This document shows, piece by piece, positions 31 through 4,976 of a stretch of 64,000 nt of DNA. Origin of the DNA: Chromohalobacter moromii. Lineage in GTDB: Bacteria > Pseudomonadota > Gammaproteobacteria > Pseudomonadales > Halomonadaceae. The DNA lies in assembly GCF_023091865.1 (NCBI RefSeq), contig NZ_JAHXDI010000002.1, positions 496,001 through 560,000 on the forward strand. Reading direction: 5' to 3'. Each line of letters opens with the position of its first letter. Position 1 is the stretch's first letter. A program made the position numbers and the translations under genes. A model generated the notes under the pieces. It made no database searches. It was not told the origin of the DNA and was given only the letters and a program-made list of their open reading frames with translations.

Positions 31-822
31 ATGGCGTCGCTGTCCACGATTCACCTTTATCCCATCAAATCTACTGCGGGACGTATGCAAGAATCGGCAT
101 GGGTCGGTTTGGAAGGGATAGTGGGTGATCGACGTTTCATGGTTGCCAAGCCCGATGGCACCTTCCTGACCGCCCGCACGCATCCACAGTTGCAGTGCGT
201 GACCGCGACGTTCGACGGTCAAACGCTGGGCCTGTCGCATCCGCAACTGCCCGCGTTGGAACTGGCGGTGGGGGCCTTCGATCTAGCAACGTTCGCCACT
301 ACGGTATGGGCCGACGACTTCGATGCCTGGACCACGCATGCACGCCTTGATGCCTGGTTCAGTGAGGTGGCGGGCGAACCCGCGCGGTTGTTGTGGCTGG
401 GTGAGCAATCCGCACGTTATCGGCGCTCCATCGAACAGCGCGTCAGCTTTGCCGATGGTTACCCGCTGTTATTGATCTCCGAGGCCTCGTTGGCCGATCT
501 CAACACGCGCACGGCTGAGCAGCATCTCATGGCGCAGTTTCGCCCCAACCTGGTGATCGCCGGTACCTCGGCGTATGCCGAGGACGAGTGGCGACGCATC
601 CGTCTGGGCGAGGTCGTTTTCCGTGTCGCCAAGCCATGCGCTCGCTGCGCGATGGTTAGCGTCGATCCCGCCACGGGTACGTTCAAGGAGGGGCGCGAAC
701 CCTTGCGCACGCTAGCCGGTTACCGGCGCGGCGAGGGCGGCAAGGTGTATTTCGGGCAGAACCTGATTGCCGAAAACGAAGGCCGCATCACGTGTCATGA
801 TCGTCTCGAGGTGCTGGAGTGA
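31..822 (+). CDS. MOSC-domain protein, YcbX-like N-terminal type
   Basis: 263-residue cytoplasmic protein. It starts with the MOSC N-terminal beta-barrel signature (HLYPIKST, residues 8-15) and ends in a MOSC domain. Cys203 and Cys206 lie in KPCARC; a cysteine at this place binds molybdenum cofactor in MOSC proteins. Family members such as E. coli YcbX use Moco to reduce N-hydroxylated compounds, but YcbX (about 369 aa) also has a C-terminal 2Fe-2S ferredoxin domain. This protein stops before that domain, so it would need an external electron donor. The ATG at 31 follows a GAGG sequence. The next gene encodes a secreted molybdopterin/pterin-fold protein, so the two may share a cofactor theme. 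Exact substrate is unknown. Confidence 0.85.
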   Translation: MASLSTIHLYPIKSTAGRMQESAWVGLEGIVGDRRFMVAKPDGTFLTARTHPQLQCVTATFDGQTLGLSHPQLPALELAVGAFDLATFATTVWADDFDAWTTHARLDAWFSEVAGEPARLLWLGEQSARYRRSIEQRVSFADGYPLLLISEASLADLNTRTAEQHLMAQFRPNLVIAGTSAYAEDEWRRIRLGEVVFRVAKPCARCAMVSVDPATGTFKEGREPLRTLAGYRRGEGGKVYFGQNLIAENEGRITCHDRLEVLE

Positions 823-941: not shown

Positions 942-1484
942 ATGAGTATCTTGATGACGCTGAGGCAATGCCTGAGGCGTCGAGGCATGACGGCCGGACT
1001 TGGCTTCTTTGTGTTCATGTCCTGTGTGTCGGTGGTACATGCTCACCCATTGCCGGCTCCCGAAGGAAAGGTCATGTTGACCGTGGAGGGGGATATCTCG
1101 CGTACCAACGGTAATGGTGTGGCACGCTTCGACCGCGACATGCTGCAGGCATTGCCACAAGGCACTACCGTCACGCATACCCCCTGGACCGCAGGTGCAT
1201 CGCATTTCAAAGGCCCTTTGCTGGGCGCAATTTATGACGCGGTCGGCGCTCGCGGCGATTCGCTGCACGTCGTCGCGTTGAATGATTTCGCTGCCGACGT
1301 ACCGCTGACCGAGGCAAAAGAGTACGGCGTCATTCTAGCCATGCAGCGCGATGGCGAGCCGATGCCGGTGCGTGAGTACGGCCCGTTGTTCGTGCTCTAT
1401 CCTTTCGATGATTACCCCGAACTGCAGACTGAGGAAGTGCGTTTCCGCTCGGTCTGGCAGGTCGCGCGTATTGTCGTGGAATGA
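942..1484 (+). CDS. Secreted pterin-binding-like protein (SUOX/Oxidored_molyb fold, PruR-like)
   Basis: 180 residues from the ATG at 942; the frame is open back to 819, but that extension looks noncoding. A charged start and a hydrophobic core (residues 16-31) end in VVHA-HP, a likely signal-peptidase site. The mature part resembles the sulfite-oxidase/YedY molybdopterin fold in miniature (THTPW, FKGPLL, ALNDF, GPLFVLYPFD) but is too short for a molybdoenzyme. Small periplasmic proteins of this kind, exemplified by Agrobacterium PruR, bind pterins and modulate a neighbouring membrane signalling protein. The stop overlaps the ATG of the downstream sensor kinase by four bases (ATGA), so coupled translation and a direct partnership are inferred. 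Confidence 0.75.
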   Translation: MSILMTLRQCLRRRGMTAGLGFFVFMSCVSVVHAHPLPAPEGKVMLTVEGDISRTNGNGVARFDRDMLQALPQGTTVTHTPWTAGASHFKGPLLGAIYDAVGARGDSLHVVALNDFAADVPLTEAKEYGVILAMQRDGEPMPVREYGPLFVLYPFDDYPELQTEEVRFRSVWQVARIVVE

Positions 1485-3694
1485 TGATGGTCTGGCGCTC
1501 CCGTATCCATCTCGTGTCGCGTTTGCCGATGCGGCTCAAGCTTGGGGCCTGCGCGGCGATCCTGTTTTTCGTTGCGGCCCTGGTGGTGGTCAGCTTGATC
1601 ATCTGGCGACAGGAAGTCCTGGCCAAGAGCGTTGCCGGCGACGCCGCCTGGGCGGCCTACAAGCTGGATCGGGAAACCATTCAGATGCGCAATGCCGTCT
1701 TGCAGGCCGAACAGAATCCGGGCGAGTTCGATGACGTGCGCATGCGCTTCGAATTGCTGTATAGCCGCATCAATCTGCTACGCGAAGGCGAAATCGCCGC
1801 GCTTTTTCAGTCGTTGCCCGAAGCGCGCGCGCTGTTGCCGGAGATCCTGTCGCGCAGCGATGCACTGGATGCCGCCTTGACGCGAATGTCCCCCGAGTCA
1901 CCCGAGCTTTCCTCATTAGATGAACGCTTGCAGACGCTGAGCGGCCTCAGCGAGCGCCTCGTCGTGTCGGTCAACGCCTATCTCGCCGAATCCAAGACGC
2001 GTGAGCGTGAAGTGCAGTTGGCACTGTATGCCGCCTTGCTAGCGCTGATCTTGCTGATGTGCGGTGCCACCGTATTGGTGATCCGTTTCCTGTTCCAGGA
2101 GGCGGGAGAGAATATCGCGGCGCGCCGGGCATTGGAGCATCTGAGCCAGGAGCTTCAGGACACCGCGCGTCATGCCGAGTCCGCCAACCAGGCCAAATCG
2201 GATTTCCTAGCCACCGTCAGCCATGAGATACGCACGCCGCTCAACGGTGTACTGGGTATGACGGAACTACTGCGCGAGCGCACGCTGGATGAAACCTCGC
2301 ATCAATATGTCGAAACCATCCACGACAGCGGTTCACAGTTGTTGGTGTTGATCAGCGATCTACTGGACTTTTCCAAGATCGAGGCTGGGCATCTGGACAT
2401 CGAGCGTGAGATGTTTTCTCTCCCCGAGCTTGTCGGGTCCTTGATGCGATTGCTCGAGCCGCGCGCCACATGTGTCGAGTTCGCGAGTGTCGTCTCGCCG
2501 GCGTTACCCGAGTATCTGGTCGGCGATGTGGGGCGCTTGCGCCAGGTGTTGCTCAACCTTCTCTCCAACGCGCTCAAGTTTACGCGGCAAGGTAGCGTGA
2601 CGCTGATCGTCAAACCGATGCGTGGCGATTGGATACATTTCGAGGTAAGCGACACCGGTTGCGGCATCGAGGATGTCGACCGCGAACGTTTGTTTCAGCC
2701 TTTTTACCAGGGAGCAGCCACGCAGAATGGGACCGGCCTGGGGCTGGCCATCAGCAAGCGTCTGGTGGAAGCCATGCAGGGGCGTATCGGCGTCTCGAGT
2801 CCGGCCAACCAGGGCAGCCGCTTCTGGTTCGAGCTGCCATTGCCCCACGACGCCGGTAAGGATGGAAAGCACATTCCATCAGGAGAAACATGGAACGCGA
2901 CAGCGGCACGTACGGCGCCCCTGCTGGTGATTGAGGACAATCCCGTCAATCGCCAGGTGGCCGTGGCCATGCTCGAACGTCTTGGACATACGGTGCATAT
3001 CGCCGACAGCGGTGAAGCGGCCTTGGAACTGACCGAGCACACGCCATTCGCCTTGATTTTCCTGGATATTCGTATGCCCAAGCTCGATGGGCCGGAGACG
3101 GCACGACGGATCATTGCCCAGAACGGTCCCAACCAGGCCACCCCTCTGGTCGCGATGACCGCGAGCGTCACCACCCAAGAACACCAACGCGCTTTGGCCT
3201 CCGGCATGGCGGAGGTGTTGACGAAGCCCATACGCCAGCACGTCCTGGTCGATATCCTCGTGCGCTTCGGCGTACGTGATCTGGAAGAGACGATCACGCC
3301 TGACGAAGTGCGCTCGTCTGCCGTGACGGCGTCGGCGGATACGCTACCGGCACTCCTCGATCGCCAGGAATTCGCGATGCTTGGTGACACGTTGGGTGCG
3401 GCGCAGCGTAGCGCACTGGTGGCGGCCTGGCAGTATCAGTCGCGGGTGCTGGAGGAGGCGCTCGAGGCGGCCGTCGCCGACGCAGATATGACGCGCACGG
3501 CTGAACTGGCACATCGCCTCAAGGGCGAGTCATCGTCGCTGGCCTTGACGCGCCTGGTACACGGCAGTGATTGCCTGGAGCGCACGGCGCGCCAGGCGGA
3601 TTCGGACGAAGCCGGTCGGCAGTGGAGAATGCTGCGCCCCACCATCACCTCGTCGCGTCAAGCGTTGCGCATGGCCAATGACATGCCCGCCTGA
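1481..3694 (+). CDS. Hybrid sensor histidine kinase (HisKA-HATPase-REC-Hpt)
   Basis: 737 residues. Transmembrane segments at about 21-42 and 179-205 flank a periplasmic region of about 135 residues that is probably helical. No HAMP domain is evident. The HisKA H-box is [10 protein letters not shown] with phospho-acceptor His248. The ATPase N-box (LSNALKF) is near 361-367, with DTGCGI and GTGLGL after it. The receiver domain holds acidic residues at 485-486 and phospho-acceptor Asp529 (LIFLDIRMP). The C-terminal Hpt domain has His678 (AHRLKGES). This is the TorS/BvgS-type four-step phosphorelay layout. No response regulator lies nearby, so the output partner is unlinked. Overlap with the preceding secreted pterin-fold gene suggests that protein is the ligand-sensing subunit. 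Confidence 0.9.
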
Positions 3695-3734: not shown

Positions 3735-4976
3735 ATGCACAAAAAACGCTGGATCGGCGGGGGCTGCCTGCTTTTGTTGTTCGGCATTGGTTGGTGCGCG
3801 GCGCAGGCGTGGTCGAGTCATGCCGGTGAACAGGCGCTGGAACGCCTGACCGCACGGCTGGACGCTCGTGAGGGATGGCAGGCCTCTCGGCATGATGTCG
3901 AACAAGGGTGGTGGCATTCCTCCGGCGTTCTGCGTCTGGAAACCGTTGTGGTGGAAGGCAGTTCGCTGCGTGTGGCGCTCCCTTATCACGTTCGCCATGG
4001 CGTTCTGAGCAGCCATCTCGATGGTGAAGCGGTTGTGACTCGCGCAGGGGAGACGCTGTTGGCAGCGGATGTCGCCCCGACATGGCAGGCGACCTATCGA
4101 ACGTTATCGGGCGATATGAAAGGGCGGCTGACATGGTCTGCGTTCACCTCACGTGGTGTGCTGCCCCAGGCAGCGTCGCTGGAAGTCGGCGCCGGCGAGC
4201 TGATGTTGAATGGGCATGCCGGGGATGTGCGTTATCACTTACGCTCGGCGCCGTGGCGCGTATCGTTGGGCGAGGCGTCGCTCGAACTCGGGAAGTTCGA
4301 CGTCGAGGGTCGTCACCGGGGCGACGCGCAAAACTTCCATCACAGCATGGACCTGTCCCTGGCGTCGCTGGCCTGGCACGAGGGTGCGCCGTTCTCGCTG
4401 AACGCACTGGACTTCGAGGCCGATCTGCGCCTCGACGATGATACCTTCGGCTATCATGGTGAAGGCAACGTGGCGAATATCGCCGTGGCGGGACAGTCGG
4501 TGGCCTCGGGACGCATGTCGCTGGGATTGGAGCGCGTCGATGCCGATGCCCTGCGTGCTCTAATCGCACGCATTCATGAAAAGGGTTTGGGCGCTGGCAG
4601 TGGCCGTGACGTGGCCTCGGTCGACGCGACGTCGCGGTGGGCGCGGTTGACCCCTTTGATAGTGAATGTGCTGCGCGATTCACCGCGACTCACGCTGGAG
4701 ACCCTGCAAGTGACCAGCGAGGCCTTCGGCATCGACAGCCGCGCCTTCGGAGAGTTGACGCTCGACGGTGACGAATCGGCCTCTCTGATGGCCACTCCGG
4801 TGACATCTCCCGCCTTCTGGCGCCATCTCCAGCAACGTCTCGATGGTCATATCACGCTTGTCGATGCGCCGGCGCTTTTGGCCCTGCATCTGGGGCTTCC
4901 ACCGGAAACGCCGCGCTTGGTTTTTCGCGTCGACGCCGGCCAATGGCGCGTCAATGAGCGTGCGCTGCGTTGGTAA
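3735..4976 (+). CDS. DUF945 (YdgA-like) family protein
   Basis: 413 residues starting at the ATG at 3735; the open frame extends upstream into the kinase gene but that part is not credible. An N-terminal hydrophobic segment (residues 7-24) acts as a signal anchor. The rest is predicted soluble, beta-rich and periplasmic (many short LDGD/LTLDG-type strands), as in DUF945 proteins. E. coli YdgA is about 500 residues, so this member is shorter at the C-terminus. Function of the family is not established. It sits 40 bp after the kinase gene and upstream of lon; nothing ties it to either. Confidence 0.65.
   Translation: MHKKRWIGGGCLLLLFGIGWCAAQAWSSHAGEQALERLTARLDAREGWQASRHDVEQGWWHSSGVLRLETVVVEGSSLRVALPYHVRHGVLSSHLDGEAVVTRAGETLLAADVAPTWQATYRTLSGDMKGRLTWSAFTSRGVLPQAASLEVGAGELMLNGHAGDVRYHLRSAPWRVSLGEASLELGKFDVEGRHRGDAQNFHHSMDLSLASLAWHEGAPFSLNALDFEADLRLDDDTFGYHGEGNVANIAVAGQSVASGRMSLGLERVDADALRALIARIHEKGLGAGSGRDVASVDATSRWARLTPLIVNVLRDSPRLTLETLQVTSEAFGIDSRAFGELTLDGDESASLMATPVTSPAFWRHLQQRLDGHITLVDAPALLALHLGLPPETPRLVFRVDAGQWRVNERALRW

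Follow-up and report, generated by a model that had tools for sequence, protein, structure and literature searches.

The closest described relatives of the locus analysed here are built around PruR, a pterin-binding protein of SUOX-type fold, which in Agrobacterium tumefaciens binds and regulates its partner, and whose homologues carry a signal sequence as well (PMC13259868). The same 2026 review (PMC13259868) already names a class, PruR-DTB, in which pruR shares an operon with the gene for a TorS/BaeS-like kinase that has a DcpA-like periplasmic domain and a WX7E motif. Within the window (the whole stretch of DNA that was analysed, 64,000 nucleotides from the halophile Chromohalobacter moromii) we find a gene pair that, on the features that can be tested in its sequence, is a PruR-DTB system, and we consider it highly probable that an exported, pterin-binding PruR controls the kinase through the periplasmic domain of the latter.

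The pruR-kinase pair and its predicted phosphorelay

The two open reading frames, pruR (942..1484, start ATG at 942, 180 aa) and the gene of a DTB-type hybrid histidine kinase (1481..3694, 737 aa), lie on the + strand (as do all features given below) and overlap by 4 bp in an ATGA start/stop (1481..1484), so that pruR is followed by its regulator in an operon-like order, as in the described class; the same pair occupies the same place in all 10 Chromohalobacter genomes. The first-pass annotation had described a four-base overlap between a small exported SUOX-fold protein, not a molybdoenzyme, and a TorS-type kinase with a helical periplasmic domain, a description that holds in all but the kinase type, of which only part can be kept (see below).

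In a PDB search the window PruR matched A. tumefaciens PruR best (7KOS, 49% identity, E 1e-42), followed by the PruR proteins of K. pneumoniae (7RKB) and V. cholerae (7KP2), and its AF2 model (pLDDT 95) superposes on 7KOS with a TM of 0.97 at 0.9 A. With 180 aa and an N-terminal signal sequence (residues 1-34, 942..1043, read from the sequence, with cleavage inferred after VVHA) it conforms to the exported proteins of about 170 aa that typify PruR. Identity as a SUOX-family molybdoenzyme was rejected: the 145-residue mature protein contains no Cys, so the Mo ligand is missing, the Pfam model PF00174 (Oxidored_molyb) reaches 21.5 bits, slightly short of the 24 bits that its curated cut-off demands, and molybdoenzymes of the family match the PruR model at a TM of only 0.6-0.7, the best structural match being PruR itself. 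The pocket is conserved, since the equivalents of the pocket Trp (Trp82 of the TPW motif, 1185..1187), Arg, Gly-Pro and pterin-associated Trp160 (Trp172, 1455..1457) are invariant in 44/44 aligned PruR sequences. Asn114-Asp115-Phe116 (1281..1289) corresponds to Asn102/Asp103/Tyr104 of A. tumefaciens PruR, in which Tyr104 faces the pterin (PMC13259868); Phe takes the Tyr104 position in 29 of the 44 sequences, the one from the window included, and is a described variant, known from Halomonas elongata PruR (PMC13259868). By analogy with PruR-DcpA of A. tumefaciens, the window PruR would thus be expected to bind a pterin.

The kinase comprises HisKA (residues 238-303), HATPase (348-455), REC (482-592) and Hpt (657-711) domains by Pfam, a two-component cytoplasmic half of the TorS/BaeS-like kind. 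TorS is its nearest NCBIfam model, which is the part of the 'TorS-type' label that stands; the score (TIGR02956, 423.1 vs a cut-off of 676.5 bits) comes from a match that begins at residue 229 and covers the cytoplasmic half only, and identity as the TMAO sensor TorS was rejected as the curated cut-off was not reached. The HisKA phospho-acceptor His248 (2222..2224) and the receiver phospho-acceptor Asp529 (3065..3067) are invariant in 68/68 DTBs, and the Hpt phospho-carrier His678 (3512..3514) is present in 61 of the 68, four of the remaining sequences having gaps there. As all three residues are kept, the His-Asp-His chain is intact and phosphate should exit to a separate regulator.

The N-terminus of the kinase was modelled as an all-helical domain (AF2, pLDDT 85) with a hydrophobic segment, recognisable in the sequence, on either side, which gives a predicted periplasmic sensor of about residues 43-178 (1607..2014). 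A profile HMM trained on the sensors of 40 halomonad DTBs matches the periplasmic domains of 12/12 DcpA proteins (E 2e-7 to 2e-13), with Trp57 aligned to DcpA Trp40, and we take the two domains to be homologous on this sequence evidence. The WX7E motif of DcpA-type domains is found at Trp57-Glu65 (WAAYKLDRE, 1649..1675). Fold searches returned helical bundles (NarQ, LytS and QseE) at Z 11-13, values that are common among helical bundles.

The explanation we favour is that PruR would be exported to the periplasm and there bind a small pterin, probably in reduced form; in its loaded state it would dock on the helical domain near the conserved Trp57 and Arg96, and docking would shift the DTB between kinase and phosphatase states, with phosphate passing from His248 through Asp529 and His678 to a separate response regulator. 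The docking and regulatory steps are modelled on A. tumefaciens PruR-DcpA.

As for the source of the ligand, the genome encodes a FolM-type pteridine reductase (335.6 bits vs a cut-off of 249) with TGGAQRLG (TGX3RXG) and YX3K motifs; FolM of E. coli converts dihydromonapterin into H4-monapterin (PMC13259868). Phenylalanine hydroxylase, an alternative user of H4-pterin, was not found in the genome. Across the family FolM and PruR are uncoupled, PruR occurring without FolM in Vreelandella and FolM without PruR in other genera. On this distribution FolM was rejected as an obligate partner of PruR; for Halomonadaceae it also gives a partial answer to a question posed in PMC13259868, in that the presence of the reductase does not follow that of PruR, or the reverse. 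This uncoupling was counted against the PruR-DTB explanation, together with the Phe in place of the pterin-facing Tyr and a mirror-tree comparison in which PruR correlated with the sensor (0.76) and with the kinase core (0.78) alike, giving no signal of co-evolution beyond shared inheritance.

Co-occurrence, neighbouring genes and rival explanations

PruR is present in 238 of the 275 Halomonadaceae genomes, and a DTB kinase follows pruR directly in the 40 halomonad loci that were fetched (a set in which one kinase is frame-broken, L059, and one is cut at a contig end, L054). One genome of this set carries tandem pruR-DTB pairs (L069:4712-10543). Among 80 public loci, the PruR gene is directly followed by DTB (67) or DcpA (12) in 79 (one unresolved). 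Conversely, the DTB sensor is absent (E 1e-3) from 38 of the 44 family genomes that have no PruR or a distant PruR only, and the two genes are gained and lost together. Separation of pruR from the kinase in relatives, which had been named beforehand as an observation that would count against the first-pass annotation, did not occur. Homology, motifs, co-occurrence across genomes and joint loss give good support to its proposal that a PruR-type protein together with a kinase makes up a periplasmic sensor of pterins. As a separate observation, in three contigs of Rhodobacteraceae type (L176, L177 and L187) PruR-DTB comes right after another hybrid kinase gene, and the Glu of WX7E is replaced by His or Asn.

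Within the 67 DTB loci the neighbours include a gene for a TRAP fused permease (44 loci), UspA (41), DUF2189 (35) and MOSC (9, in a few genera, with other genes occupying the spot elsewhere). In the window, a gene encoding a MOSC_N-MOSC protein by Pfam (31..822) ends 119 bp upstream of pruR, where the first-pass annotation had placed it; given its distribution it was rejected as a constant partner and is better regarded as a lineage-specific neighbour, and a promoter scan of the interval between it and pruR returned nothing. Downstream, a gene for a DUF945 protein (3735..4976) is found in most Chromohalobacter loci. The genes of NosP, a NahK-like kinase and an ErdR-like regulator are present in 20 of the 67 loci (in L046:2525-5714 they come immediately after PruR-DTB), and NosP is absent from 10/10 Chromohalobacter genomes. 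Upstream of MOSC-pruR-DTB, in the same genome and ahead of the window, lies a TRAP fused permease gene (TIGR02123, DUF3394; L040:4244-6841).

This last gene, and the close upstream position of its counterparts in those 44 loci, raise the question of whether the pair responds instead to the TRAP substrate, PruR then being the binding protein for some non-pterin metabolite; the presence of kinases that work with a partner protein (LytS-XylFII and QseE-QseG) among the fold matches of the sensor would agree with such a role. We regard it as improbable, since the pterin-pocket residues are invariant, the DTB loci of the REC-EAL class (see below) lack a TRAP gene over the stretches covered, the synteny may be an inherited order of the locus, and matches between helical bundles are weak evidence.

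Still less probable, in our judgement, is that the kinase senses a ligand of its own, PruR having an accessory or scavenging function and no control over it. In favour of such independence, the sensor fold resembles those of the direct ligand-binding sensors NarQ and McpN, and in four loci (L246, L248, L250 and L253, from two genera) a DTB, an OmpR-type regulator and REC-EAL are retained with no pruR next to them. The sensors of these four loci have diverged, however: the Trp and Glu of WX7E are retained, Arg96 is changed to Gln (three) or Leu (one), and Tyr94 is Ser in 4/4. Genomes without PruR, furthermore, mostly lack the sensor, and the A. tumefaciens protein regulates its partner by binding (PMC13259868).

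At the position of Arg96 (1766..1768 in the window), Arg is found in all 80 PruR-partnered sensors (68/68 DTBs and 12/12 DcpAs) and in 0/4 of those without adjacent PruR, a contrast that involves four sequences from two lineages, three of which align weakly to the sensor profile. A distant PruR is encoded elsewhere in three of these four genomes. We propose Arg96 as a candidate contact of PruR, a lead rather than proof; the pattern was not found in the accessible literature, and together with the natural loci that lack pruR it offers a direct mutational handle on the action of PruR upon its partners.

The least probable alternative, in which the pair would sense the molybdenum cofactor or its state, with PruR binding Moco or molybdopterin and the MOSC protein taking part in the circuit, draws on the SUOX-type fold of PruR and on the presence of MOSC ahead of the pair, both in the genus and in those nine loci. 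The first-pass suggestion of Moco-state sensing finds little support, since the pocket in the solved structures of PruR is truncated, judged unlikely to accept Moco and devoid of a Mo-ligating Cys (PMC13259868), and since most DTB loci have no adjoining MOSC, the TRAP transporter, UspA and DUF2189 genes being commoner.

A REC-EAL module in sister-group loci

The accessible literature names no output for PruR-DTB. In part of the Halomonadaceae, a sister group of loci combines the pair with a divergent gene for an OmpR-type regulator on one side and a convergent gene for a REC-EAL phosphodiesterase on the other, a conserved four-gene module exemplified by L066:3084-7988. The REC-EAL protein has REC and EAL domains by Pfam, and its best response-regulator model is PvrR, under the cut-off of that model. 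Orthologues were found in 59 of 275 genomes searched (60 matches, 9 genera): among the 40 loci viewed in context, 31 have PruR and DTB, two PruR and a broken kinase, four DTB only and three neither, and a comparison of coordinates places the other 20 within about 3.5 kb of PruR. REC-EAL thus stands beside a DTB locus in 57 of the 60 cases. Common descent means that these do not count as independent, but the persistence of REC-EAL there across nine genera argues that it is an output of the DTB.

These data hint that the sister-group DTBs act through REC-EAL on the biofilm messenger c-di-GMP, and by extension from the sister loci we infer that DTB output can include the breakdown of c-di-GMP by a REC-EAL regulator. 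The OmpR-type/REC-EAL module was not found in the accessible literature, of which Greenwich 2024, known through PMC13259868, may report some of the neighbours. The module supplies a specific output that can be tested, and it points to two different wirings by which pterins of the periplasm may feed into c-di-GMP control.

Within the genus of the window no orthologue of the REC-EAL or OmpR-type protein was found (the matches were confined to EAL domains and to regulators with no more than 37% identity), and no regulator gene adjoins the pair. The genome of the window encodes 29 receivers, and the orphan candidates among them (GacA/UvrY-like, LuxR-type, OmpR-type and a REC-GGDEF protein with a degenerate GGDEF) include none that is preferable. 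The orphan REC-GGDEF protein (L204:4117-5988; G000:C2 about 189116-190987) has 623 aa, a weak Hpt match and the degenerate motif AGGAF.

Comparison with known systems

Several kinases share the general principle with the pair described here. In TorT-TorS, QseG-QseE and XylFII-LytS a periplasmic partner protein likewise works through a helical sensor domain of the kinase, whereas in the window a SUOX-fold PruR takes the place of TorT, QseG or the sugar-binding protein; for the sensors we claim no similarity in sequence. NosP-NahK, in which a cofactor-binding protein regulates a hybrid kinase, resembles the pair in this respect and adjoins PruR-DTB in the 20 loci mentioned above, but has no NosP counterpart in Chromohalobacter.

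The described PruR-DTB systems (a 2024 study, as reported in PMC13259868) agree with the window in the two-gene operon, the exported PruR, the DcpA-type domain with WX7E and the TorS-like cytoplasmic half. They differ in that the window kinase has the full HisKA-HATPase-REC-Hpt series without PAS, whereas the R. pomeroyi example has a PAS domain, with no Hpt mentioned in that account of it (PMC13259868); nor are the OmpR-type regulator and REC-EAL partners of halomonads mentioned in PMC13259868.

With PruR-DcpA-PruA of A. tumefaciens the pair shares its periplasmic half, namely the PruR fold and a homologous sensor domain. The reductase in the window genome is FolM and not an enzyme of the PruA group, and a phosphorelay kinase makes up the cytoplasmic half of the window protein, whereas DcpA acts directly on c-di-GMP by its GGDEF-EAL domains. 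We give an even chance to the proposal that PruR-DTB is a phosphorelay counterpart of PruR-DcpA and reaches the same messenger, periplasmic pterins then controlling c-di-GMP by phosphotransfer through the sister-group module, and that Arg96, besides WX7E, would report dependence on PruR in both classes.
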